Assembly (NCBI RefSeq): GCF_042453785.1
Contig: NC_091676.1
Coordinates: 2,053,501 to 2,117,500 of the forward strand
Direction of reading: 5' to 3'
Length of the DNA: 64,000 nucleotides
From: Malus domestica
Lineage: Eukaryota; Streptophyta; Magnoliopsida; Rosales; Rosaceae
The stretch's first letter is position 1; each line of letters opens with the position of its first letter. Below the pieces are notes generated by a model, which was given only the letters and a program-made list of their open reading frames with translations, was not told the DNA's origin and did not search any database. The position numbers and the translations under genes were made by a program. Of the stretch, positions 23,069-60,637 are shown in pieces.

Positions 23069-26000
23069 TCTCGTGTACTTATTGTTGGCTCACAGCCAGG
23101 CTCCCTACTTATTTGCTGGAAAATGGAGTAAGCTTCTTCTGTTCTTCGAGCCTTTACCAAGTGGTGCAAGATTATGTCGTAAGTTCGGGCATTGGGACCG
23201 ATTACACATTTACTCATCTCATCCACCACCCTAAACGCATCCTGCATCTGCATCGACCAGCAGTAAGCCCCCACAAGAGCATTGTACGTGGGTGCCTCTG
23301 GTTCGAAACCACTGGCTTTGTTCAGCTCATAAAACTCAAGGGCTTCACTCAACCTCTTTCAGAACCCAACCCATTAATCAAAATGCAGAAGATATGAGGA
23401 GTAGCCTTGACATTCTTCGATTCCATCTCACGAAACAACTCAATCGCTTCATCGTACTTCTTCGCTTTACAATGTGCATTGATCAGAATAGCATATGTTG
23501 TTGTGCCTTGGTCCGTTCGTTAGTGCGGAAACGAGATTCAGATTACAACCTCACCAAAATCACACTCAGTTAAACAGAATAAAATACAAGAAATAAAGAC
23601 ACCGAGAAATTTACGAGGTTCGGCAAAAAATCCTGCCTACGTCCCCGAAGAGATATTGCTCTTCACTATGAGAATAACAGTACAAGTACACATGAGTTAA
23701 ATCAACATAACCCAATCCCAAATCCCTTGCACACCCACTCATAGAATTTTCCCAGTAGCCTCACTCTACCCCTCCCTTACACACCCACTCATAGAATTTT
23801 CCCAGTAGCCTCACTCTACCCCAAGAGTTCTTTCACTAGAATACTTTTCACTCTAGCTCTCTTGATTTTCTCTCACCCGTGCCCATGCTTTCCCATGGGA
23901 GAGCCGAATGCTCTCCCCCTTTAGATGCTCTCTGATGCCTTCTTAGGAGAGAGCCGAATGCTCTCTCTATCTCTCTCTCCACTTCGGCTCTTTGCAGTTA
24001 AATGGAAAGAAAATGAATCAACCTCTCCTTTTTTGCACAGACATAATGATGATGCATCATGCTCCCTTTGCCTTTTACTCAAAACCCAAAGCCACTTTCG
24101 TGGCATGCAAATGGGAAATCAATAAAAAGGCCAAAACAAAATAATCTCATGAAACATCATCATTGTCTTCCACTATTAGCCAAAATGAGATATGGACACA
24201 TTCGGTCACTATTCCGAAAGCATAACACACAAAGTCACTTAATTGTTAACAGCTCAAAATATGAGCCAATCACAACAATCTCCACCTTGGCGAATATACT
24301 GTGCAAAAATCCTTGCACCCATCACCAAAGTCCATTGGCCTTACGTACCAGCATACACATCCTGAATCAACCTCTTTGGTCCTGTTTCGATTCAGTCACT
24401 GCCAATGCATGTGCAGCTGCTGCAAGCTAAAAATCACCATTTAGCTTCAGACAGGATCTCGACACATCCTCGTCTCCTCCAGCAGGTTTTCCTCCTCTTC
24501 ATTGTTTGCAACCTGGAAACTCGTCAGCGCGCCCGTTTCCAGCAACAACCCATCGAGCCAGACAAAATTCCCACACTTCCTCCTACCTCAGGACCATCTC
24601 ATCACCTGTGAATCCCATAGCTCCACCTGCTGCAAAACCCCTGCAACACTCAAGACTAAACATCACCAGGAGAAGTGTTGCTTCGAGTACCTAGATGACA
24701 TACTCAAAGTCTTCCGCCACAAACTTGCTACAACCCGGCCTTGCACTTGTAGCACTGTGGACTCTTGCCTCCGGAACCAGATCTGAACCTGCTGTCTCTC
24801 TCAGATCCTCTTTCCAATTTTCTTCCACGATTCCAACCTTTAATAACTTAAGCAGTCTTGTGCCCACCATCATCCATGGTCTCCTTTGTGTATCATTCCA
24901 CACCAAAGAAGTTTGCACCTGCTCCAAACTTACTGTATTTTTCTATGCAGTAAAGTTTCACAAGGTTCTCGTACAAATCTGAAAGTGAGTTAAGAAGAAA
25001 GAGGCCTTTGGCTTCTTCCTCAACATCAACTTTCGCAGTTGATCTAAGCATCCCTGAACACGGCTTCCATTACTCTCCTTTACCAAGAGTAAAACAGCCC
25101 CTCCCATTAAACTGCTCAACTGACAATTCCATGGTGAACAACAAATCTGGACCTTCAACGAACCAAGCGTCCAACGATGCTCTGATACCAATTGTTGTGC
25201 CTTGGTCCGTTCGTTAGTGCGGAAACGAGATTCAGATTACAACCTCACCAAAATCACACTCAGTTAAACAGAATAAAATACAAGAAATAAAGACACCGAG
25301 AAATTTACGAGGTTCGGCAAAAAATCCTGCCTACGTCCCCGGAGAGATATTGCTCTTCACGATGAGAATAACAGTACAAGTACACATGAGTTAAATCAAC
25401 ATAACCCAATCCCAAATCCCTTGCACACCCACTCATAGAATTTTCTCAGTAGCCTCACTCTACCCCAAGAGTTCTTTCACTAGAATACTTTTCACTCTAG
25501 CTCTCTTGATTTTCTCTCACCATGCTTTCCCATGGGAGAGCCGAATGCTCTCTCCCTTTGGATGCTCTCTGATGCCTTCTTAGGAGAGAGCCGAATGCTC
25601 TCTCTATCTCTCTCTCCACTTCGGCTCTTTGCAGTTAAATGGAAAGAAAATGAATCAACCTCTCATTTTTTGCACAGACATAATGATGATGCATCATGCT
25701 CCATTTGCCTTTTACTCAAAACCCAAAGCCACTTTCGTAGCATGCAAATGGGAAATCAATAAAAAGGCCAAAACAAAAGAATCTAATGAAACATCATCAT
25801 TGTCTTCCACTATTAGCCAAAATGAGATATGGACACATTTGGTCACTATTCCGAAAGCATAACACACAAAGTCACTTAATTGTTAACAGCTCAAAATATG
25901 AGCCAATCACAACATATGTCACATCATCTGGATCGAAACCCTCGTCCCTCATTTCTCCATAAATCTCATTCAACCTCAAAAAGTTCTGTTCTTGGCCCCA

Positions 26001-36097: not shown

Positions 36098-36944
36098 TGT
36101 TAGTTTGTGGAGAATGTTTCAGGCGAAAGTGGGACGACAGAGGTGGGGCCCACACCTTGCTGACATGGTAAGATGATCGGAGTGACGATGGAAACTCAGG
36201 AGGGGTCGGGACTGGAACTGGAACGTGGGAGAAGGAGATGGCGACGGCTGGTCTCCACGATCAGCGGGCGTGTCTACTGGGGACAACTGTTAAATTCGAT
36301 TCGCAACAACCCGATTCGGATGCGGTTTTGGGCTGGCCCAACCAGAAGTTTATTTCGTTTCTCCTCTTATCCTCGACAGGGACACGCGTCGCTCAAGAGC
36401 GATTTCAATGAAATGGTTCAGTTAGGCGGGCAAAATGTGGGCCAGATGGTTTTGGGCATCGGCGGCAGCGGGGTAGGCCGGGACCTTCACTTATGACAGC
36501 TTTCTTGTATTTGGAGGCTATATGTCAATGCAGAGAATTAGATGGTAAGATCAAAGATCACTTGCCATTTGCCCGAAAGAGAAGTTTTGATTGCTTAGAT
36601 AGATCAAATGATACAATTAAGTATTGTTTCCTTTACCTTACGGTTGTATATTTCCTTGTACACTTTCAGGGCTTTCCAAGGTCTTTTGCATCAATGAGTT
36701 TAGGGGTCTTCAATTTGATCATCAGCATTCTTACGATATTCTAAACGGAAATAAGGTACAAGGAGAATTCCTGTTTGAACTTTCAAGAAAATGAAGCGTC
36801 TTCTCTGTATTAATACAATATAATACCATGTAAGAGGCATAGGGTAAACCCTTTAGCACTACCACCTCAAATTTTTTTTTATTTGAACAAACGATATTAT
36901 CTACAATTTTAAACTTATATGTATATGGTTCTTAAAATTAACGT
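36098..36944. other. Spacer: EAF promoter and left flank of the LTR element
   Basis: Upstream region of the minus-strand EAF gene, GC-richer for its first 400 bases. The plus-strand frame at 36173-36496 has no recognisable domain. A T-run with GAACAAACGATATTATCTAC near 36880 is a SINE tail fragment. Confidence 0.5.
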
Positions 36945-37889
36945 TGTTTATACCATATTTAGGGCCTCGTATTTAGATCTCGTACAAATACTCGGGGGAC
37001 TTAAATGTAATTATGTGATAAAGGAAGGGGCAAATATGTAATAAGTGAGGAGCCCTTATTCTATAAAAGGACTCCTCACCCTAACAATTGAGAGAGGCCT
37101 CACTCTCACTCTCAGAGGCCATTTCTGAAGCCTCTCACCCCCTCTCAAAGCTTCCTCACACCCCCTAAGCTCTAAGCTCTCTCTCTCCCTCTTCAACAGA
37201 GAAATACAATACAATCAGTGTGGACGTAGCCCAAACCTTGGGGTGAACCACGATATATCTTGTGTTATTTACATTTCTTGCAGATTCACGGTCGGATTTA
37301 CGTTGTTCCAAGACCACCCCGGTTTTGTGCATCAACATTTGGCGTCGTCTGTGGGAATCGATACGAAAAGTTGTGTCGGTTCTCTTTCATTTTTTCATCT
37401 CCGTCGTGAATCTGCAAAAATTTGCAAAAACCCAGAAACCAGATCTCAAAATCACTCATCTCTCTCTCTCTGGAAAACACATTGAAGCTAAACAAAAACC
37501 CCACTTCTCGATACACAAACACACTTTGTCTCTCTCTCTCTCTCTAAACTAATCCCTCAGCAAAAACAAAAAAAAAATCCAGAAGAAAAAGAAAGAGATT
37601 CCATCGTCTCAACCATCATCATCATCTGCTCCGCAGCCCCGCCAATCCTCCGCCGCACCCCAATCTTTCCATCGTCTGATCGCTGTCGACGTCCCCAACG
37701 AAGAAGACGAGATCCTTTTCGCAGCTCCTAGCTCTCGTCGCCTCTGTGAGATCAGACACCCAGAAAAACGGCATAGCACCATCACAATCTCCTTCTCTCT
37801 CCCTCTAGGCTCCAGCCATGAGCGAACCATTCGTCGCATGCCCACCACCATGCAGCTTCTTTGTCCTAAGCTTTCATATTTCAACGTCC

Positions 37890-38020
37890 ATGGCTGCCAA
37901 GAACTACATTATTCTCAGAATGTTTGCCTTGCTGGCAACTATTTTACCGGCTGCGAGTTCGATAAAGTTCAGCTATCCGGCGGTTTTCAACTTCGGGGAT
38001 TCAAACTTCGACACCGGGGC
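37890..38020 (+). pseudogene. Captured GDSL esterase/lipase 5' fragment inside the LTR element
   Basis: The frame opens MAAKNYIILRMFALLATILP, a secretory signal peptide, and runs to FSYPAVFNFGDSNFDTG, which holds the GDS nucleophile block of GDSL esterases. Homology ends at DTG, a few residues past the catalytic motif. Only about 44 of some 370 residues are present. An upstream ATG at 37818 is in the same frame. The fragment lies in element orientation. Confidence 0.75.
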
Positions 38021-38143
38021 GTCTTGTCGGCGAGAAGCTCGTTTTTCAAGAACATGTTCTCGGCAAAGAGAGGTTCGGTCTGAAGATGCTTAGATACCGG
38101 AGAAAATCATTGCAGAAACTGAAGAGTGAAAGTCGCCCCTGCC

Positions 38144-38545
38144 AAAATATGCTCGGGGACAAGAACAGGTTTTGAAATATTGTGCCAAGGTTTTAACTGG
38201 GAATCTAGTAAATTTGGAAGACGGTACAAGGAACTCAAAAGTAAAGTTGCAGAATTAGCTTCACTATGTTTCATTGTGATTTGGGTCCCACCTCCTACAG
38301 ATTTTGTGTCGCCTCAAGGGTACATGCCGAGGGATTTATACAATATGAACTCCAGATATGGAAATATGGACGAACTAAAGGAGACTGTGAAGACATTCCA
38401 TGATACCAGTTTAAAAGTTCTTGGAGATGCTGTTCTAAATCACCGTTGTGCAGAATATCAGAATCAAAATGGTGTTTGGAATATATTTGGTGGTCGTTTA
38501 AATTGGGATGAACGTGCAGTTGTTGCAGATGATCCACATTTTCAG
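38144..38545 (+). pseudogene. Captured alpha-amylase fragment (AMY3-like) inside the LTR element
   Basis: An open stretch of about 134 residues matches the start of the GH13 catalytic domain of plastid alpha-amylase: KICSGTRTGFEILCQGFNWE, WVPPPTDFVSPQGYMPRDLY, VLGDAVLNHRCAEYQNQNG and FGGRLNWDERAVVADDPHFQ. The conserved DAVLNHR block is present, but the catalytic Asp/Glu region further on is missing. The match ends exactly at HFQ, where unrelated sequence starts. No intron interrupts it. It cannot make an active enzyme. Confidence 0.85.
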
Positions 38546-38587
38546 GTTAGGGATCCAAAGCAGCTTCCTGCAACCGTTCTTTCAAAT
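38546..38587 (+). pseudogene. Possible SF1 helicase motif fragment next to the amylase piece
   Basis: In the same frame as the amylase piece the codons read VRDPKQLPATVLSN, close to the GDPxQLPAT motif of UPF1/SEN1-type helicases. The match is only about a dozen residues, so this is a weak call. Confidence 0.35.
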
Positions 38588-39289
38588 ATTGAAGTTAATG
38601 TTGAAGGTCGGCTACCGGCGGGTTTATGACCGTGGCTGAAATCAATGCCGAGATTGAGAATGCAAAATCAAGGACAAGTCGATCTTACTGGAGTAAAGAA
38701 AAAGAGAAAAGGTATGAGAATAATGGAAAGGAAGTAGAAAGCAAGCGTGGCTGCCCACCCACTCCATTGTCGACCACCCACATGCAAAAGAGAAGTTTTG
38801 CTCTGCAAGAGCACATGGAAAACAAAAGCAAAAGAAAACAGCCATCATTTTATGATTTCTGAGAAAGCAAAAGGAAAAAATGCTCCACTGATTTCCTGAT
38901 TTCTGAGAAAGCAAAGGAAAGTCATTTTCTGATTTCTAAGAAAGTAAAAGCCATCTGCAATCTGAAGACTCCACTGATTTTATCTGCAAAAGCAGAAGGG
39001 GAAAAGAGACACTCCACATGATTTTCTTGTCTGCCATTTGCAAAAGAGAAAAGAAAATTATGGGTCTGATCCATTGATCGTCGGATTTAATTTTTTTTAC
39101 CGATGTAATTTATTTTTCTTATCTTTCGGAGACATCTGTATAAACCCCATCAGAGGGTAATCATAAAAAACAAAAAAAAAAAAAAAAAAAAGAGCCCAAA
39201 ATAAATAGGCTGGAATGTTGTGTAGGGCAAATGCCCATAAGCCCAAAATAGCTTCAACCAGGTGATCAAAAGTACGCTCAGTACTCCAA

Positions 39290-39480
39290 ATTATACATGA
39301 GCATTACTCATGTCATTCATACATAAACATTCATGAGCATCACTCATGACAATCATACATAAACATTCATGACCATCATTCATGTCAACATTCATGAGCA
39401 TCACTCATGACAACATTCATGAGCATCACTCATGTCAATCAACATAAACATTCATGAGCATCACTCATGTCAAACAACTT
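39290..39480. repeat. CATTCATGAGCATCACTCATG repeat array inside the LTR element
   Basis: At least six diverged units built on ATTCATGAGCATCACTCATG lie in tandem with short spacers (TCAA, ACAA). Each unit is partly palindromic around ATGAGCAT and ACTCAT. Confidence 0.75.
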
Positions 39481-39723
39481 CAAAAGATTCATTTACAGAG
39501 CTCTAGCTACAAAGCTTCACTTGCAAAGCTTCACCTACAAAACTTCAGTGCAGGGTATACAAATACCGCCTCTGACCAACCGCCACTTCGGCCCATACAT
39601 GGATTCAATTTGAAGTCTCCAGCCAACAGACTCTATTGACCGAAGACTTGGGGGACTACATTATGTACCACATATTGGGCCTCAACTGGGCCTCATGAAA
39701 AATACTTGGGGGACTCTAGCCCA

Positions 39724-39963
39724 TTATTTATGTATTAAGGAGCGAACCCTTATTCTATAAAAGGGACTCCCTCACTTTCATTGAAGATCACCCATGATTT
39801 ATGTATTGAGGAGCGATCCCTTATTCTATAAAAGGGACTCCCTCACCACCATTAGAGAGCATCGCCGCCTACTGAGCAACCGTCTCACTGCGAGCATCAA
39901 CTCTAACTCATCACTTATGTATTGAGGAGAGAGCCCTTATTCTATAAAAGGGACTCCCTCACC
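39724..39963 (+). repeat. Three LTR-promoter-like boxes inside the LTR element
   Basis: Three units share TTATGTATTRAGGAG and CCCTTATTCTATAAAAGGGA, then CTCCCTCAC (near 39730, 39797 and 39915). They resemble the TATA-containing part of the element's own LTR (AGCCCTTATTCTATAAAAGG), as if promoter pieces of related elements had accumulated. Confidence 0.7.
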
Positions 39964-40578
39964 TTCAAACGCCACAAGCCGAGCCAACCAAGGCAACACA
40001 AGCTACAAGCAAAGCGGCCTCGCAACATGTGCTACTTCTAGTTGAGCATCATTTCAGATTGGGCACCGCCTCATATCAAGCATTAGTTCTAGACGACATC
40101 TAGTTACTTCGGCCCACACATGGACTGAATTTCAAGTCTCCAGCCAAAAGACTCTCTTGACTGAAGACTTAGGGGACTACTGTTTATACCATATTTAGGG
40201 CCTCGTATTTAGATCTCGTACAAATACTCGGGGGACTTAAATGTAATTATGTGATAAAGGAAGGGGCAAATATGTAATAAGTGAGGAGCCCTTATTCTAT
40301 AAAAGGACTCCTCACCCTAACAATTGAGAGAGGCCTCACTCTCACTCTCAGAGGCCATTTCTGAAGCCTCTCACCCCCTCTCAAAGCTTCCTCACACCCC
40401 CTAAGCTCTAAGCTCTCTCTCTCCCTCTTCAACAGAGAAATACAATACAATCAGTGTGGACGTAGCCCAAACCTTGGGGTGAACCACGATATATCTTGTG
40501 TTATTTACATTTCTTGCAGATTCACGGTCGGATTTACGTTGTTCCAAGACCACCCCGGTTTTGTGCATCAACAAACGT

Positions 40579-42421
40579 ATTATCGTTTGATTGAGACATG
40601 CTTCCTCTACGGCCATATCTTGCTATAGTTGTTGGGATTTGGCGATCAGTATCCTATGTCATGAATATTCTTACTACTCGTGAGGTAGATAATTTTATAT
40701 CTAATACCTTCGGCTCTGTTTCCTCCTTATTTTGCAGGCACCGCATCTCCTTCGGAGGACGTCACATTAGGAAAACAATGGTAGCTCAAAGTAGAATAGT
40801 GTTGTTTTGGTATAGCACCACTTACCTTCTCCTTCAGAAAAACAAACCACAATACCAGCTGCTGGAGGCCGCACCTCTTGACCAAATCCAACCAGCGGTG
40901 CAGCTTGAGCTCTTAAATACCGAACAAGATGAACAAAACGTGCCAAATGAAGTTAATGAACAACCCGTAACAGTTGGAACAGTCGAATTAAACCAGCCAC
41001 CAAGTGAATCACCGCCAATTGACTTTGTCCTAGAAGGTTTGTGATTTCTTTGGCATTAGTAGTGTTGTTATGAGACGTGCCACTGTTAATTGATCTATTT
41101 CATGCAGGTGATAAGTAGAGGAGATATCTTAGCAAATAAGGGAGCGTCGTGCCTTTTCCGACCCAATGAGCCATATTTTCTATGCAACAAGACGATTGAC
41201 GATGCTTAATCGTGTTGCATTATTGTATATCCAAATCAACTTAGAAATCTCACGTATAATGAAGATGCCCTTTCGTATTTGATCGTAGAAATCTGGCTTG
41301 GACATGAATTTCACTGGGATTTTTTTCAGTTTTTTGTATCCAGAGAAAGGCGTGATTTGCACATCCTTTTGTTTGTTAATTACTCATCTTGCAAATGCTT
41401 TTCTATGTTATTAGACATTTGTAGCCGTCGGTTGTGTTTCTTATTCAGTATTGTTTTTTATGTAAATATAGGTTAGGCCAGTTAGCTGAGGTAGGTAAAA
41501 TCGCACAATACCTCATTTGCACTTAAATTCGAGTCTCTACATTGTAGTCATTATAGTTTAAAAAATCTCATTATAAAAAATAAAATAAAAAAGTTAAAAG
41601 TTAAAAACAAAAAGAAAGAAAAAAAAAGTTAAAAGTTTAGAAAAAAAAAAACGTGCATTTATTTCAACGGTACATAAAACGTGGAGAGCAAATCCCTGTA
41701 ACGTTTGTCACGTTGTTGTTCTAATCCGTATGTTTCTGTAGCTTCGAAGATTTGTTCAAACATCATTAAAAGATAGAACACGTTGCTAAATTGACCAAAA
41801 TACCCTCGGAACATGTGATATTAACCATTAAAATATGACACAGGCACTACCAACCATACCCCGAAAGTGTGCCGTAAAGAAAAGCAATGCCTGTGAAAAA
41901 AAGAGATGGCTGCTGACACGCATAAACGGCGGTAACTTACACAGAAGGTATCAAATCAAGAGAAATGCTAAATAAACGCTCTTAAAGTCAAATTCTGTAT
42001 GAATTTTTCGTTTCGTATTTTTACATAATATTTTATAATATTAATATTAAAATTACACTAAAAATACAAGTTAATAAAAAATCCAAAAACATGAGCCGAC
42101 AAAAAAACCTATGGAGAATTCTATTTTTAAGATAGTTCGCTTACCGTTTCTTTAAAATCAAAGGTTTAGGTTTGGGTTGCCGTACCGTCACAATAACTTC
42201 TTGGAGGGTTCGCTCTCATCTCTTGGCTCGTGCTACATGCCAACACCGAAAAAGCCGCGCGCAAATTGCCACGTGTCATTCCTACGCGGTCTCTCTCTGA
42301 TTTGTAGCATCTATGGTTCTATATCTATATATATGTACCATGTACGTACCTCGTTGTCGAACAAAAACACACATCAAAATCTTAATCATCAAACTTTCGA
42401 GAAGGTGCAAGCTTTGTCATC
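40579..42421. other. Spacer between LTR element and first paralogue; no firm gene
   Basis: A 148-codon frame at 40598-41044 has a Gln/Glu/Pro-rich tail (LEAAPLDQIQPAVQLELLNT) but matches nothing I recognise. The rest is AT-rich. Bases 42240-42421 form the promoter of the first paralogue and share AAATTGCCACGTGTCATTCC, with a CACGTG G-box, with the second paralogue's promoter at 51110. Confidence 0.4.
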
Positions 42422-42892
42422 ATGTCTACATCAACGCTAACCTCTGCTCTTCTCTCAGCTCCGCCACCGCCGCAGCGTTTCATTTCCGGCGTTAACCGAA
42501 AGACCGGGTTGCTGGAAATGCGGCGTAGGCGTCGTCCTCTGACGATTTATGCGTCGTCGCGTGGTCATGACAATTACGACGGTAGACTTGTGGACGAGGA
42601 CATGATTGTGCTTCGGATGCGAATTCACGACGCGGAGATGCTGGAGGAAGACAATCACCAACCGCCGTCGAACTGGATGCGGTGGGAGAAGCAATATTAT
42701 GCACACTACAACTGGGACATCTGCGAAGGCGTGGGGTTGTTGCAATCCCAATTGATGAACACTAGGCCTAGCGTGGCGTTGGGAATGCTAGCTCTTGTTA
42801 CAATTAGCGTGCCAATATCCACGGCTGCTTTGATGTTCCCATTGCTGGACATCTTCAAGGGGATCTTAGCAAGTGGGAATATTCATTTTTAG
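42422..42892 (+). CDS. Uncharacterised plant plastid-type membrane protein, paralogue 1
   Basis: A single exon of 156 residues. I do not recognise a named family. Residues 1-45 are Ser/Thr/Arg rich with few acids, like a chloroplast transit peptide. A conserved core follows: YDGRLVDEDMIVLRMRIHD (about 52-70), PPSNWMRWEKQYY (81-93) and LLQSQLMNTRPSVALGMLAL (106-125). One hydrophobic segment (about 118-142) ends in LLDIFKGIL. Two paralogues lie downstream at 51268 and 55205, all on the plus strand. Its 3' flank was split by the LINE block that starts 23 bases after the stop. A CACGTG-containing promoter segment is shared with paralogue 2. The core is conserved while the leader varies, as expected for a functional gene. 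Targeting is inference. Confidence 0.85.
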   Translation: MSTSTLTSALLSAPPPPQRFISGVNRKTGLLEMRRRRRPLTIYASSRGHDNYDGRLVDEDMIVLRMRIHDAEMLEEDNHQPPSNWMRWEKQYYAHYNWDICEGVGLLQSQLMNTRPSVALGMLALVTISVPISTAALMFPLLDIFKGILASGNIHF

Positions 42893-42914
42893 TTCATGTA
42901 AATAGATACACATA

Positions 42915-45900
42915 ACTCCGCCTATGTAATTTTACATTGCCGGTCCCAAGCCCGGATAAAGGAGGAGGGGGAGGGCGTCAGGTAGTCGACAGCCGGCACT
43001 CCATGATCACGTCGAATACTTATGAAAATGAATCCAGAACAAAATCGCGCTAAAGCTAGGGCGTCACCCGTAAGTGGCGCGCTGTGTGGCCCGAGCACAG
43101 TGATAAGTGAGCAAGGGTCGCTGTATCTCCATCGGCACCCGGATGCAGTGTTAAATGAGCAAGGGGGCCGTAGAAACTTCTTTTCGAACGACTCCACTCA
43201 AAGTTGTTTGGGAGCATATGCTCCTATCAACTTTACACGGGACACACAAAAGAAGTACTTTGATCCTATTAGACGGGGGAGGGTGAAGAAGCTAGGACAG
43301 AAGGGTAGAGTTCAAGAGAGCAAAATGCGTTTAGGAACGTGGAATATAGGAACCTTAACGGGAAAATCTATGGAAGTAGTGGAAGTTATGGTGAGGAGAA
43401 GGATAAATATTATGTGCCTACAAGAAACTAAGTGGGTTGGTAGTAAGGCAAAGGATCTAGAAAACTCAGGGTTTAAACTTTGGTATTCGGGCACAAATAG
43501 AACGAGAAACGGTGTTGGCATCATCGTGGACAAGACCTTGACACAAGATGTTGTAGATGTCAAGAGGGTAGGAGATAAAATCATGGCAATCAAGATTGTA
43601 ATAGGACAAGAACTTATCAATGTGATTAGTGCGTACGCACCTCAAGTAGGGTTGGATACGAGTTCGAAGGAGAAATTTTGGGAAGACCTTGGAGACTTGG
43701 TGCAAGGAATTGCTCAGACGGAGAAGTTATTTATAGGAGGAGATCTAAATGGACACGTGGGCAGGGAGACAGGCAACTATGGAGGTTTTCATGGTGGCCA
43801 TGGTTTTGGGGAGAGAAACGAGGATGGGGAAGCTATCTTGGATTTTGCAATGGCATATGATCTCTTCTTAGCCAACACCTTCTTTAAGAAGAGAGAAGAA
43901 CATGTGATCACCTACAAGAGTGGGTCGTCAAAAACACAAATAGATTTTCTTCTAATGAGGAAAGGGGATCGTATAACTTGTAAGGATTGCAAAGTTATAC
44001 CAGGAGAGAGCGTGGCTAATCAACATCGCTTGTTGGTGATGGATGTACATATCAAAAGAGGGAGACAAAAGAACAAGACTTGGAAGTGCCCAAGGACTAG
44101 ATGGTGGAATCTAAAAGAAGAAAAACAAGCCATTTTCAAAGAGAAGGTAATCACCCAATGTGTGTGGGATAGAGAGGGGGAAGCTAGCCAAATGTGGGAT
44201 TCCATGGCTAGTTGTATCCGAAAAGTAGCAAAAGAGGTATTAGGAGAGTCCAAGGGCTTTGCCCCACACCAAAAGGAATCTTGGTGGTGGAATGAGGAGG
44301 TACAAACAAAGGTGAAGGCTAAGAAGGAATGTTGTAAAGCCTTATACAAGGAGATGACCGATGAAAATGGTGAAAGGTATAGAAAAGCGAAGCAAGAGGC
44401 GAAGAAAGCGGTCAGAGAAGCTAAGTTAGCGGCTTACGACGATATGTATAAACGACTAGATACCAAAGAAGGAGAGTTGGATATCTATAAACTAGCTAGA
44501 GCAAGGGAAAAGAAGACAAGGGACCTAAACCAAGTGAGGTGCATCAAGGATGAGGATGGAAAGGTTCTTGCTACAGAGAACGCGGTTAAAGACAGATGGA
44601 GAGGTTATTTTCATAATCTTTTCAATGAAGGACATGAAAGGAGTGCTTCTTTAGGGGAGTTGAGTAACTCAGAAGAGTGTAGAAACTACTCTTTTTATCG
44701 TCGAATCCGGAAGGAAGAAGTGGTTGTAGCTTTGAAGAAGATGAAGCATAGAAAAGCAATAGGCCCAGACGATATACCAATCGAAGTGTGGAAAGTTTTG
44801 GGAGAGACAGGTATAACATGGCTCACTGACCTTTTCAATAGGATTTTGAAAACGAAGAAGATGCCAAATGAGTGGCGAACGAGCACTTTGGTGCCTATCT
44901 ACAAGAATAAGGGCGACGTACAAAATTGCATGAACTATAGGGGTATTAAGCTAATGAGTCATACAATGAAGCTCTGGGAGAGAGTCATTGAGCATAGATT
45001 GAGGCAAGAGACACGGGTTTCGGACAACCAATTCGGGTTCATGCCAGGGCGCTCAACCATGGAGGCAATCTATCTCTTACGAAGATTGATGGAAAGATAT
45101 AGAGATGGGAAAAAGGATTTACACATGGTCTTTATAGATTTGGAAAAAGCGTATGATAGGGTCCCAAGAGACATTCTTTGGAGGATCTTAGAGAAGAAAG
45201 GAGTACGAGTAGCATATATCCAAGCTATAAAGGATATGTATGAAGGAGCAAAGACTGCCGTAAGAACTCATGAAGGACAAACCGAAAGCTTTCCCATAAC
45301 TGTAGGATTACATCAAGGCTCATCCTTAAGTCCTTACCTTTTTGCGTTGGTAATGGATGAGTTAACAGGACATATTCAAGATGATATTCCTTGGTGTATG
45401 CTTTTCGCAGACGATATAGTGTTGATAGATGAAACTCAGGAAGGGGTAAATGCAAAGCTTAACCTTTGGAGAGAAGTGTTGGAATCTAAAGGTCTTCGCC
45501 TAAGCCGATCAAAGACAGAATATATGGAGTGCAAGTTTAGTGCAGATGGAGGCCAAAACGAGTTAGGGGTGAGGATCGGAGATCAAGAAATACCAAAGAG
45601 CGACCGTTTTCGTTACCTAGGATCTATCTTGCAAAAGAACGGAGAATTAGATGGAGATCTCAACCATAGAATACAAGCTGGATGGATGAAGTGGAAGAGT
45701 GCATCTGGCGTGTTGTGTGACCGCCGTATGCCACTGAAGCTCAAAGGAAAATTCTATAGGACGGCAATAAGGCCGGCGATGCTGTATGGCACAGAATGTT
45801 GGGCGGTGAAGCATCAACACGTACACAAAATGGGTGTAGCGGAGATGAGGATGCTTCGTTGGATGTGTGGGCACACGAGAAAGGATAAGATTAGGAATGA

Positions 45901-46179
45901 GGATATCCGGGGTAAAGTAGGAGTAGCCGAAATTGAAGGAAAGATGAGAGAAAATCGGTTACGGTGGTTTGGACATGTGCAAAGAAGGCCTACTGACGCT
46001 CCGATTAGAAGATGCGACTATGGGACAGAGGTTCAGGGCCGAAGGGGTAGAGGAAGACCTAGGAAAACTTTGGAAGAGACTCTAAGAAAAGACTTAGAGT
46101 ACTTGGATCTAACGAAGGACATGACACAGGACCGAGCACAATGGCGTTCTAAGATTCATATAGCCGATCCCACTCAGTG
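42915..46179 (+). mobile_element. RTE-clade LINE, main part with complete ORF
   Basis: Starts at ACTCCGCCTATG immediately after a 17-bp target duplication (GTAAATAGATACACATA, 42898-42914). A short 5' UTR precedes the long ORF at 43022-46180. LINE homology ends about 46179, within the terminal CACTCAGTG, where the usual GGGAAAAGGC and GTTG tail would begin. The matching right-hand duplication is at 51057-51073, after a second LINE piece. Confidence 0.88.
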
Positions 46180-47249: not shown

Positions 47250-49040
47250 GAGCTTCAGACATCGAAGAGGCGCCTGCTCAGAAATCGAAGAGGCGTTTGC
47301 TTTCTCAAAAGCTGGGCTGCTTAGAGACCACGAGGGTTGATCTCATAAATCGAAGAGGTGTTTGCTTTCTCAAAAGTTGGGCTGCTCAAAGACCACGAAA
47401 GCCGATCTCAGAAATCGAAGAGGCGCTCGCTTCCTCAAAAGCTGGGCTCCTCAGAGACCACGAGGGCCGATCTCAGAAATCGAAGAGGCACCTACTTTTC
47501 CAGCCTTGTCAGCACCTGTCACACGTACACTCAGCTTTACGGAAATTATGGGTATTCTGTCGAAGACTTCTGGGGAAGTAAAAAACACATGAATCTTACT
47601 GTCCAATCACCCACTTCCCACACGCAGCAATAGCTCATGGGTACCACAGATAACTTTGCCAAAGTTCTCTGCCAAAGTTGAGCACGTGAAGCTTGCAGCT
47701 CCCACTACATCGCTCTGACCAAGAAGGGTAAAAGAATAGCAAAGAAACAGCACTAACAAAGTTTAGACCCATAAATTTTGAAGGTCTAGCTACCATATTA
47801 TTACCCACAAGGGTAAAGGAACAGTACCACTGTTGGATAATTGGAAAGTCCCTGTGTGTCAACCTCTGTGCCTCGTGGCAAGGTAGACTAGCAAACATGC
47901 CCAACCTTTACTCACATTCGAGAAAACACTCCCAATAAGATTGCTTGCTCCAAAATCGAAGAGGCACCGTCCTCCGAATCTCGAGAGCCAGACTCCCAAC
48001 ATGACTACTTTCTCAAAAATCGAAGAGAGGGTAAAGGAACAGTACCATTGCTGGATAATTGGAAAGTCCTTGTGTGTCAACCTCTGTGCTTCGTGGCAAG
48101 GTAGACTAGCAAACATGCCCAACCTTTACTCACATTTGAGAAAACACTCCCAACAAGATTGCTTGCTCCAAAATCGAAGAGGCACCACCCTCCGAATCTC
48201 GAGAGCCAGACTCCCAACATGATTACTTTTTCAAAAATCGAAGAGACACTGCTCCCCGAATCTCGAGAGCCAGACCCCCAGCATGATTGCTTTCTCAAAA
48301 ATCGAAGAGGCATCGTTCTCCGAATCAATCGAAGAGGCGCTCGCTTTCTCAAAAGCTGGGCTGCTCAGAGACCACGAGGGCCGATCTCAGAAATCAAAGA
48401 GGCACCTTCTTTTCTAGCCTTGTCAGCACCTGTCACACGCACACTCAGCTTTGCGGAAATTATGGGCATTCTGTCGAAGACTTCTGGTGAAGTAGAAAGC
48501 ACATGAATCTTACTGTTCAATCACCCACTTCCCACACGCAACAATAGCTCATGGGTACCACAGATAACTTTGTCAAAGTCTCTGCCAAAGTTGAGCACGT
48601 GAAGCTTGCAGCTCCCACTACATCGCTCTGACCAAGAAAGGTAAAAGAATAGCAAAGAAACAGCACTAACAAAGTTTAGACACATAAATTTTGAAGGTCT
48701 AGCTACCATATTATTACCCACAAGGGTAAAGGAACAGTACCACTGCTGGATAATTGGAAAGTCCCTGTGTGTCAACCTCCGTGCTTCGTGGCAAGGTAGA
48801 CTAGCAAACATGCCCAACCTTTACTCACATCCGAGAAAACACTCCCAACAAGATTGCTTACTCCAAAATCGAAGAGGCACCGCCTTCCGAATCTCGAGAG
48901 ACAGACTCCCAACATGATTACTTTCTCAAAAATCGAAGAGACACTGCTCCCCGAATCTCGAGAGCCAGACCCCCACCATGATTGCTTTCTCAAAAATCGA
49001 AGAAGCATCGTTCTCCGAATCTCGAGAGCCAGATACCACA
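47250..49040. repeat. Complex repeat region built on AATCGAAGAGGC units
   Basis: More than fifteen AATCGAAGAGRC motifs are spread through the region. A unit of about 900 bp is duplicated: CCTTGTCAGCACCTGTCACA occurs at about 47504 and 48419, and AGCTCATGGGTACCACAGAT at about 47631 and 48546. A 120-bp sub-block (GGGTAAAGGAACAGTACCA) occurs three times, near 47811, 48029 and 48725. Confidence 0.85.
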
Positions 49041-50436: not shown

Positions 50437-51057
50437 ACAAAAAGCGACCGTTTTCGCTACCTAGGATCTATCTTACAAAAGAACGGAGAATTAGATGGAG
50501 ATCTCAACCATAGAATACGAGCTTGATGGATGAAGTGTAAGAGTGCATCCAGCATGTTGTGTGACCGTCGTAGGCCACTGAAGCTCAAGGGAAAATTTTA
50601 TAAGACGGCAATAAGGCCAGCGATGTTGTATGGCACAGAATGTCAGGCGGTGAAACATCAACACGTACACAAAATGGGTGTAGCAGAGATGAGGATGCTT
50701 CGTGGGATGTGTGGGCACACGAGAAAGGATAAGATTGAGAATGAGGATATCCGAGGTAAAGTAGGAGTAGCCGAAATTGAAGGAAAGATGAGAGAAAATC
50801 GGTTCCGGTGATTTGGACATGTGCAAAGAAGGCCGACTGACGCTCCGGTTCGAAGATGTGACTACGGGACAGAGGTTCAGGGCCGAAGGGGTAGAGGAAG
50901 ACCTAGGAAAACTTTGGAAGAGACTCTAAGAAAAGGCTTAGAGTACTTGGATCTAACGGAGGACATGACACAAAACCGAGCGCAATGGCGTTCTAGGATT
51001 CATATAGCCGACCCCACTTAGTGGGAAAAGGCTTTGTTGTTGTTGTTGTTGTTGTTG
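50437..51057 (+). pseudogene. Second LINE (RTE) 3' piece with GTTG tail
   Basis: Matches the last roughly 585 bases of the LINE ORF (from 45593) and continues through the genuine RTE 3' end: CCGACCCCACTTAGTGGGAA, AAGGC, then about eight TTG units. It carries in-frame stops (near 50524, 50542 and 50811) and differs from the main LINE at several percent of positions, so it is a separate, older or faster-decayed copy. A 17-bp target duplication starts at 51057 directly after the tail. Confidence 0.88.
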
Positions 51058-51267
51058 TAAATAGATACACATATTAATTATTTATTTAATTCCAAAAAAG
51101 GCACGCATAAATTGCCACGTGTCATTCCTACGCGGTCTCTTTCTCTCTCTCTCTCTCTCATTTGTAGCTTCTGTATATATGTACCATGTACGTACCTCGT
51201 TGGCAAACAAAGACATACATCAAAATCTCAATCATCAAACTTTCGAAAAGCTGCAAGCTTTGTCATC

Positions 51268-51738
51268 ATGTCTACAGCAATGGTAATCTCTGCTCTTCAC
51301 TCAGCTCTGCCACCGCCGCGGCGTTTCAATTCCAGCGTTAACCGAAAGACGGGGTTGCTGGAAATGCGGCGTAGGCGTCGTCCTCTGACGATTTCTGCGT
51401 CGTCGCGTGGTCATGATAATTACGACGGTAGACTTGTGGACGAGGACATGATTGTGCTTGGAATGCGAATTCACGAGGTGGAGATGGAAGACGAAGACAA
51501 TCACCAACCGCCGTCGAACTGGATGCAGTGGGAGAAGCAATATTATGCACACTACAACTCGGACATCAGCGAAGGCGTGGGGTTGTTGCAATCCCATTTG
51601 ATGAACACCAGGCCTAGCGTGGCGTTGGGAATGCTTGCTCTTGTTATACTTAGCGCCCCAATATCCACGGCTGCTTTGATGTTCCGATTGCTGGACATTT
51701 TTAAGGGGATCTTAGGCGGTGGGAATATTCACTTTTAG
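51268..51738 (+). CDS. Uncharacterised plant plastid-type membrane protein, paralogue 2
   Basis: A single exon of 156 residues, the same length as paralogue 1 and roughly 87 percent identical by eye. The core YDGRLVDEDMIVLGMRIHE, PPSNWMQWEKQYYAHY and LLQSHLMNTRPSVALGMLAL is kept, as is the C-terminal hydrophobic segment ending LLDIFKGIL. The basic, Ser-rich leader suggests plastid targeting (inference). Upstream 5' sequences match paralogue 1 from about 51105, including CACGTG and GTACCATGTACGTACCTCGT, but with an expanded CT repeat at 51140-51160. The 3' flank GTAAATAGATAAACATATTA also matches. The pair is therefore a tandem duplication later split by the LINE block. Confidence 0.85.
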   Translation: MSTAMVISALHSALPPPRRFNSSVNRKTGLLEMRRRRRPLTISASSRGHDNYDGRLVDEDMIVLGMRIHEVEMEDEDNHQPPSNWMQWEKQYYAHYNSDISEGVGLLQSHLMNTRPSVALGMLALVILSAPISTAALMFRLLDIFKGILGGGNIHF

Positions 51739-52180
51739 TCCATGTATGCATGGCTTCATTGCCTTCTGTAAATAGATAAACATATTAATTATTTTCTTAA
51801 TTAATTAATTTCTTGGAAAATTGTTCACTCATATAGCTATATCGAATTAATTTATTAGTTATGTTTCATTATCGAGATAACTTGTCGCAAAGTTTTTGCA
51901 CATGCAATACAATCAAATTTCAACACACAAAATCTTAACTAGTTATTAATTTAAGGGAGACTTTGGATGCGGTCCCTAGTTATGAACAATTTTTTACTGA
52001 AACCTTGTTGTTTTTCAATTTTTGATCCAAGTCCCTAAAATTAATTGATAATTTATTTCTATGTACGTTACTATATTTTTTAAATTAAAAATTAAAATTT
52101 ATAGTTGTTTATAGTAATGAGATTTTAAATAAAAAACCATAATTTGTGGGATTAAAAATATTAAAATATAAATATACTAT

Positions 52181-59405: not shown

Positions 59406-60017
59406 CATTTAAAATTACCCCAAAAAACTTCATGATTCATTAAAAAAAAAAACAATTATTTCCTTTGGACACCAATAGAATTTTAAAACAAAAGTGGTAA
59501 CTACAAACTGATTTGGATCAAACTTTAGCGTTGAGTCAAGCTAATCGCGTAGCCGCAATATGATTGGGTAGAGAGAAAGGGTGTCCAAAGAAAAATAAAA
59601 TGGGTGACCTAAACAAAATAAGTAAATGAGGTGTCCACACAAAAAAATTGAGTGTACACAAAACCACTCCAATTAAATACCTAAGTTCGATCTTTCTTAA
59701 TTTGCCATACAAATACAATACATCGGCCTCTGATGATCAAAGCTCCAGCCGGGAAAGTGAGTCCAGTAAGTAGCTTCTAGCTAGGCGTATGCAGCTCCTG
59801 TTGGATTCTCAACAATCGATCTTCAAAGCATGCTCCTCATATGTCATATATCCAGGTAAACCAGCTTCTTCCCAAAGGCATCTTATATATCTCCTTAGTT
59901 TCTGCATGAAGTTCTACTGCAAAATAAATTGTGAGTAAGAAAATCAATTCATAAATCCAATAATTAGTAATCTTTTTACCAAGAAAATAAATTTGAAGTT
60001 GTGGAATGAATAATTAT

Positions 60018-60204
60018 AGGTAAGGAGCTCCCTTCAGTCCAAGACGTGACAGCAATAACCAACCTCTCGGCTCCTGCTTCGTTGGATCAGAAAAACACCA
60101 CTTCTTTTAGCAAATGTATGATGAGTTTTTGAACCAACGAGTCAGCAGCTGAGTGCCAGCCCTTAAACTGCCAAGGACTGGACTGAAGAAGAGCTCCTTT
60201 CATA
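60018..60204 (-). ncRNA. MIR319: MIR319c-type microRNA precursor
   Basis: On the minus strand the 3' arm contains TTGGACTGAAGGGAGCTCC followed by TT (60042 down to 60022), which agrees with Arabidopsis miR319c as I recall it. The 5' arm, about 60178-60198, reads AGAGCTCTTCTTCAGTCCAG and pairs with it with a few mismatches, as a miR319 star strand does. Between the arms lie about 135 bases including GCTGACTCGTTGGTTCA. The long stem with mature RNA on the 3' arm is the known layout for MIR159/319. miR319 cleaves TCP transcription factor mRNAs to control leaf shape and growth. The primary transcript should run from the right; its promoter was not located. Confidence 0.93.
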
Positions 60205-60637
60205 TATATATATATAAACCCACCCACACGACATTATATATAAAACCCTAGGGATTAAATTAACGAAGCGAATACACGACCACATAATATAGGGTTTGCA
60301 TGCATGCATTAATTACAAGCCGTTTTGATCAGCTAGAAGATGCATGCTTGTTCAATAAGTACTATACATAATCATATTTATATAATTTAGGGCTTATTGC
60401 CATAGATCGAAAAGAGAGAAATAACAGAGGGCACAGCTGAGAAAATGGTAAGGGACGAGAAAGGAAGAAGGAGGGCGAGGGTATATACAGCCATAAAAGG
60501 TGAAAACGCCGACATGCAGATCTAAAAAACAGTACTGATTGAGATTGAGGGCAGAGGTAAAGGGCACCAATTCATATCATGTTTGAAAATTTTCGAAGTC
60601 CTTTCAACTCAAACAGGACAACTTTATCTTAATTTTG

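Follow-up and report, generated by a model that had tools for sequence, protein, structure and literature searches.

A young non-autonomous LTR retrotransposon in Malus domestica carrying an intron-free alpha-amylase fragment in place of gag and pol

The window analyzed here, a stretch of 64,000 nucleotides from Malus domestica, contains a real LTR retrotransposon of 3,629 bp (positions 36945-40573), bounded by two direct LTRs that end in TG...CA and by a short duplication of the target site. We consider it likely that this is a recent non-autonomous plant element in which scraps of spliced host mRNA have replaced gag and pol. A sequence-only reading of the same DNA had seen here a young LTR element, non-autonomous and carrying coding sequence taken from host genes, and that description is borne out by the identity of the LTRs, by the lack of any gag/pol match and by an alpha-amylase match in the interior. 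The framework of the element consists of the following features.

36940-36944, no strand: target site duplication AACGT, left copy
36945-37337, plus strand: 5' LTR, 393 bp, TG...CA ends, one TATAAAA at 37062
37338-37359, plus strand: candidate primer-binding site TTTGGCGTCGTCTGTGGGAATC, directly 3' of the 5' LTR, judged from sequence
40171-40176, plus strand: short purine run AGGGGA, a weak polypurine tract, also judged from sequence
40181-40573, plus strand: 3' LTR, 393 bp, TG...CA ends
40574-40578, no strand: target site duplication AACGT, right copy

The two LTRs agree at all 393 positions (0 differences) and AACGT is present on both sides, both as the earlier reading had stated. With no difference among the 393 sites, LTR divergence has a 95% upper bound of ~3/393, which at a substitution rate of 1.3e-8 per site per year places the insertion at less than about 0.3 million years ago, or earlier if the host evolves slowly. 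LTR identity could also come from gene conversion or assembly collapse. For the two remaining structural claims, a primer site and a purine tract, there are candidates. A primer-site-like sequence, TTTGGCGTCGTCTGTGGGAATC, occupies the expected place; ARAGORN found no tRNA genes in the whole 64-kb window. The only purine run before the 3' LTR, AGGGGA, lies four bases from the LTR start and is weak, at 6 bases. The possibility of a Copia- or TRIM-type primer site, pairing with initiator tRNA-Met, was rejected, the stretch after the 5' LTR differing from what we take to be the sequence of that site. A Helitron or Pack-MULE origin was rejected on account of the TG...CA LTRs with their 5-bp target duplication and of the uninterrupted amylase stretch. 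An exact LTR pattern, one for each collection, had 0 matches in viral and 0 in prokaryotic contigs, collections in which a plant element would be out of place.

A Pfam scan of the six read-through frames of the internal region (37338-40180, untrimmed, E<=1) returned three families, alpha-amylase (1.1e-8), BTB (0.047) and SEHBP (0.21), the last being the only family matched in the reverse frames. No gag/pol family was found at this threshold across the six frames, in agreement with the earlier statement that the element has no genes of its own, and we judge it, without gag/pol protein domains, to be non-autonomous. The host-like pieces are all in sense orientation, between the primer site and the 3' LTR; they are given below together with the reading frame and leader that precede or contain them.

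37092-37817, plus strand: 726-nt stretch without ATG in any frame, from the assumed transcription start to the first ATG
37818-38093, plus strand: ORF of 91 codons plus stop, opened by the first ATG
37890-38004, end approximate, plus strand: GDSL esterase-like N-terminus, a hydrophobic leader and VFNFGDSNFDTG block, by motif
38012-38068, plus strand: BTB/POZ scrap HRGVLSARSSFFKNMFSAK, NPR1-like, by Pfam PF00651 and PDB
38174-38542, plus strand: alpha-amylase (GH13) fragment without introns, from the N-terminal portion of the catalytic domain, by Pfam and PDB
38552-38587, plus strand: helicase-like motif DPKQLPATVLSN, matching the AAA_11 profile (PF13086) at its final 12 positions
38579-38626, plus strand: possible sulfotransferase scrap LSNIEVNVEGRLPAGL, weak, by PDB 1q44

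The amylase stretch, which the earlier reading had named, is the one host fragment that we regard as firm from its similarity. It matches PF00128 with 39 bits (E 7.8e-10; 1.1e-8 in the untrimmed frame), at profile positions 23-97 of 446, and PDB alpha-amylases with a best E-value of 1.1e-25; the PDB alignment takes in residues 18-140 of a frame that begins at 38123 (38174-38542). The PDB search with this frame gave 222 distinct sequences at E<=1. Identity to the best chain, 2qpu_A, presumably from barley, is 52/123 aligned residues, and a chain named barley alpha-amylase 2 was matched with E 7.7e-23. The frame is open throughout and continuous over the 123 aligned residues. We assume that the captured amylase is of the plastid type; no plastid-type enzyme is named among the 60 PDB matches listed of the 222. 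A functional amylase is not supported, as only positions 23-97 of the 446 in PF00128 are matched, and we take the catalytic residues to lie downstream of this span.

A second host fragment, absent from the earlier reading, is suggested with moderate confidence by the BTB/POZ scrap. Cut down to 32 residues once the first hit was known, the scrap matches PF00651 with 21.7 bits (family cut-off 20.5; E 2.3e-4), the whole ORF with 17.8 bits (E 0.0039), and the untrimmed frame of the six-frame scan with 14.3 bits (E 0.047). All 11 PDB matches of the scrap at E<=10 are BTB-domain proteins, namely NPR1, NACC1, KBTBD4, PATZ1 and a ZBTB17-NACC1 chimera, of which the chimera is the best (E 3.2e-4) and four NPR1 chains reach 0.23-0.36; NACC1 and NPR1 are, we assume, BTB-domain proteins.

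The other pieces bear directly on how many genes were captured. Secreted plant GDSL proteins have an N-terminal hydrophobic leader with its ATG, followed by the GDSL block, and the GDSL-like piece is a candidate at motif level, by its motif and this arrangement. Of the signal peptide and nucleophile block proposed earlier, the pattern of VFNFGDSNFDTG does occur, once in the window, but the piece has no GDSL match in Pfam or in PDB at E<=10. It presumably comprises the first GDSL block only, and a functional esterase is not supported. The helicase-like motif scores 12.6 bits against a cut-off of 27 (PF13086, E 0.11, 12 residues) and no PDB helicase is matched at E<=10. Since unrelated Pfam families reach similar E-values (GDH_ACT2 on the amylase piece at 0.15 and 0.083, LigA on a flanking ORF at 0.075, and the reverse-strand SEHBP match), we consider this match to be at noise level. 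The possible sulfotransferase scrap also appears to be at noise level: the only PDB match of LSNIEVNVEGRLPAGL at E<=10 is the sulfotransferase 1q44, with a weak E-value of 0.9 (0.5 when trimmed). No credible Pfam match was obtained for 37553-37984 and 38605-38856, nor a credible PDB match for the latter (best E 8.9), and six short peptide strings of the element had no literature match.

These results give some weight to a capture from one gene or two, the amylase and possibly BTB, with the GDSL, helicase and sulfotransferase resemblances all arising by chance, which we regard as somewhat unlikely. The six-frame scan is strong for amylase only, with BTB far weaker; the GDSL piece is without a database match; and the helicase-like stretch at 0.11 stands beside an unrelated family at 0.083 in one Pfam search. 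We also compared patterns of these motifs in the six frames of the 64-kb window with 200 residue shuffles. The sulfotransferase-type pattern was found once, against 0.34 expected per shuffled window. The GDSL-, helicase- and BTB-type patterns also occur once each, against 0.0, 0.005 and 0.0 per shuffled window, so that the GDSL and BTB patterns, seen in 0 of 200 shuffles, count against so small a capture, although the patterns were composed after sight of the sequence and these figures therefore overstate significance. The position of the GDSL block, behind a hydrophobic leader with its own ATG, points in the same direction. For the two or three host genes claimed by the sequence-only reading, the outcome is thus mixed, with amylase firm, GDSL at motif level, helicase at noise level, and a moderately supported BTB piece that it had not named.

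The preferred reading, in which spliced host mRNA scraps entered an LTR element, also has to account for the way in which the pieces are joined. Within the 91-codon ORF, 24 residues are followed by the GDSL-like N-terminus, which runs straight into the BTB piece with a change of frame. The BTB and amylase pieces share this other frame, with stops between them. The amylase, helicase-like and sulfotransferase-like stretches lie in a common stop-to-stop frame of 168 codons, whose first ATG (38324) is inside the amylase. No ORF of the element covers all of the host-like pieces, and a single Bs1-like chimeric gene was rejected because of the differing frames and of the stops between BTB and amylase. 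Blind joins are expected to shift the frame, and the passage from GDSL into BTB therefore counts for template switching.

We infer the existence of a helper element, a passage through RNA, the switching of templates and all captures other than that of the amylase. An LTR of the element would drive transcription, and a related autonomous element would donate capsid, reverse transcriptase and integrase. Within the particle, reverse transcriptase would have moved between two kinds of template, the RNA of the element and host mRNAs packaged along with it, probably more than once in the history of the family. Template switches between unrelated co-packaged RNAs have been described, according to the available text of a review (PMC13317346), and RNA-level capture through template switching is the likeliest route here. 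The step taken by the sequence-only reading, from an intron-free amylase stretch to a capture through RNA, is plausible.

Capture at the DNA level, with genomic exon pieces taken up through recombination or repair rather than through RNA, is in our view unlikely. It keeps some weight because accounts of plant amylase gene structures, in the portions available, gave no intron position that could be mapped onto the captured span; direct evidence for it is nil. The same literature describes introns in cereal amylase genes (two to nine in subfamilies amy3 and amy4 of barley, wheat and rice). The amylase stretch is uninterrupted, and the available text of PMC4717578 reports exons only in gene-carrying TRIMs and in the maize element Bs1, but both exons and introns in Pack-MULEs; both points weigh against a DNA route.

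We also doubt the most elaborate form of RNA capture, a mosaic of five genes (GDSL, BTB/NPR1-like, amylase, helicase and sulfotransferase) assembled by serial mRNA template switching, in which a selected ATG-free leader would feed ribosomes to the 91-residue ORF with its captured signal peptide. Such a mosaic would hold more host genes than any plant LTR element compared here. The leader itself is unusual. With transcription assumed to start ~30 nt after the TATA box (37062), an inferred position, its 726 nt contain 0 ATG in any frame. Dinucleotide shuffles of it contain a mean of 5.9 ATG (2/2000 without any), single-base shuffles a mean of 7.7 (1/2000 without any), and 0/1266 overlapping stretches of the same length from both strands of the window lack ATG. 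The leader may be a heritage from the leader of a partner element, or may reflect selection for translation; it does not in itself point to a product. Against capture from several genes, also in the preferred reading, only amylase is strong in the six-frame scan, in which GDSL, helicase and sulfotransferase have no match at E<=1, and the five-gene reading was lowered because unrelated Pfam families equal the helicase hit in E-value. A literature search, covering titles and abstract openings, found no plant LTR element with five host genes.

The 3' part of the element is occupied by repeats.

39296-39478, plus strand: tandem array of CATGAGCATCACTCATG-type units
39585-39775, plus strand: degenerate repeat, inside the element, of 40106-40315 (80% identical across 133 nt)
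39720-39977, plus strand: TATA-containing 71-nt unit in three copies (39720, 39791 and 39907), resembling the LTR promoter region

The counterpart of the degenerate copy, 40106-40315, spans the border between the internal region and the 3' LTR, reaching into the LTR as far as its TATA unit; the alignment of the two has a score of 140, compared with <=27 in 50 shuffles. This degenerate second LTR start, absent from the sequence-only reading like the ATG-free leader and the sulfotransferase-like scrap, may stem from an earlier recombination or template switch involving a related family. At 39165-39191, inside the element, there is a poly(A)-rich run; it may be the remnant of a captured mRNA tail, or just a simple repeat.

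Read-through transduction of one adjacent gene, 3' or 5', in place of template switching, appears quite improbable: the degenerate second LTR start would allow a 3' extension, and the available text of PMC13317346 puts read-through first among the mechanisms in one section list and records a 3' event from an Arabidopsis TRIM, but the host-like pieces sit between the primer site and the 3' LTR, and a single neighbor could not supply coding-to-coding joins of unrelated genes, should the pieces beyond the amylase be genuine. Provided that the short pieces are genuine, their coding-to-coding joins with changes of frame are better explained by blind switching than by read-through from one neighbor.

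Several gene-capturing LTR elements, as described in partially available sources, are comparable. The maize element Bs1 combines segments from three unrelated host genes, reportedly as a chimeric gene expressed as both RNA and protein (PMC13317346). Our element resembles it as an LTR element with host gene content, with an intron-free amylase here compared to the exons-only capture of Bs1 (PMC4717578). It differs in having no single ORF across the pieces and in the genes captured. GmaRetroS15, a soybean TRIM, contains intron-free fragments of three host genes between both LTRs with a 5-bp target duplication, and is among two TRIMs with exons of more than two genes (PMC4717578). Both LTRs, the 5-bp duplication and the intron-free host fragment are shared with our element, but gene-carrying TRIMs measure 1,172-1,449 bp (PMC4717578), and at 3,629 bp with 393-bp LTRs the element is too large to be a TRIM.

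Larger surveys report 425 LTR elements of maize that contain gene fragments and go back to at least 189 captures (PMC2774510), and 672 captured genes in LTR elements of rice and 1,343 in those of sorghum (PMC3726574); like these, the present element is an LTR element with a host gene fragment. Under the criteria of the maize survey (PMC2774510), 0/425 carried more than one standard nuclear gene, although Bs1 is itself from maize. The earlier view that several host fragments in one element are uncommon in plants is thus supported by the maize count and tempered by Bs1 and GmaRetroS15, with three genes each; from these sources, multi-gene capture by plant LTR elements is rare but already known. 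The Retand Gypsy lineage also has tandem repeats upstream of the 3' LTR and young non-autonomous members (PMC11963269), features that our element shares. It differs in having no reverse transcriptase by which to place it and in its total length of 3,629 bp, when the pol-to-3' LTR region of Retand alone measures 2,933-6,566 bp (PMC11963269).

Other features were observed elsewhere in the window. A MIR159 microRNA precursor, of what we take to be a plant microRNA family, lies at 60011-60208 on the minus strand (106 bits); along with the overall appearance of genes and repeats, it marks the window as plant DNA. Direct repeats of 275 and 300 bp, 98-99% identical and ~1.65 kb apart, occur at 23498-25819 and are possibly another young duplication or element. 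A type-P1 twister ribozyme (42909-42973, plus strand; 67.4 bits, cut-off 67.2) sits at the 5' end of a LINE whose ORF (43007-46177) has endonuclease and reverse transcriptase domains. This LINE is flanked by an 18-bp duplication, TGTAAATAGATACACATA, at 42897 and 51056, the ribozyme match beginning inside the left copy, and a 655-bp direct repeat (90%) is found on both of its sides (42246-42900 and 51092-51746). The end of the LINE ORF is duplicated (45594-46179 and 50438-51023, 93% identical), with ~4.3 kb between the copies, including tandem arrays at 47277-49033, and a (TTG)n tail continues from the second copy, not from the first; this looks like an insertion or duplication inside the LINE. 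A twister at a LINE 5' end is of a kind already known, as twister ribozymes at RTE retrotransposon 5' ends are mentioned as work in preparation in the available text of PMC7761336.

By itself, the element leaves the known picture unchanged. Retroelements that join pieces of several mRNAs nevertheless offer exons a direct path to being shuffled, and the sources consulted describe few plant LTR elements with more than one captured gene. In a copy with identical LTRs, the joins could be compared with parents that are still recognizable, and switching at short shared strings could be checked.
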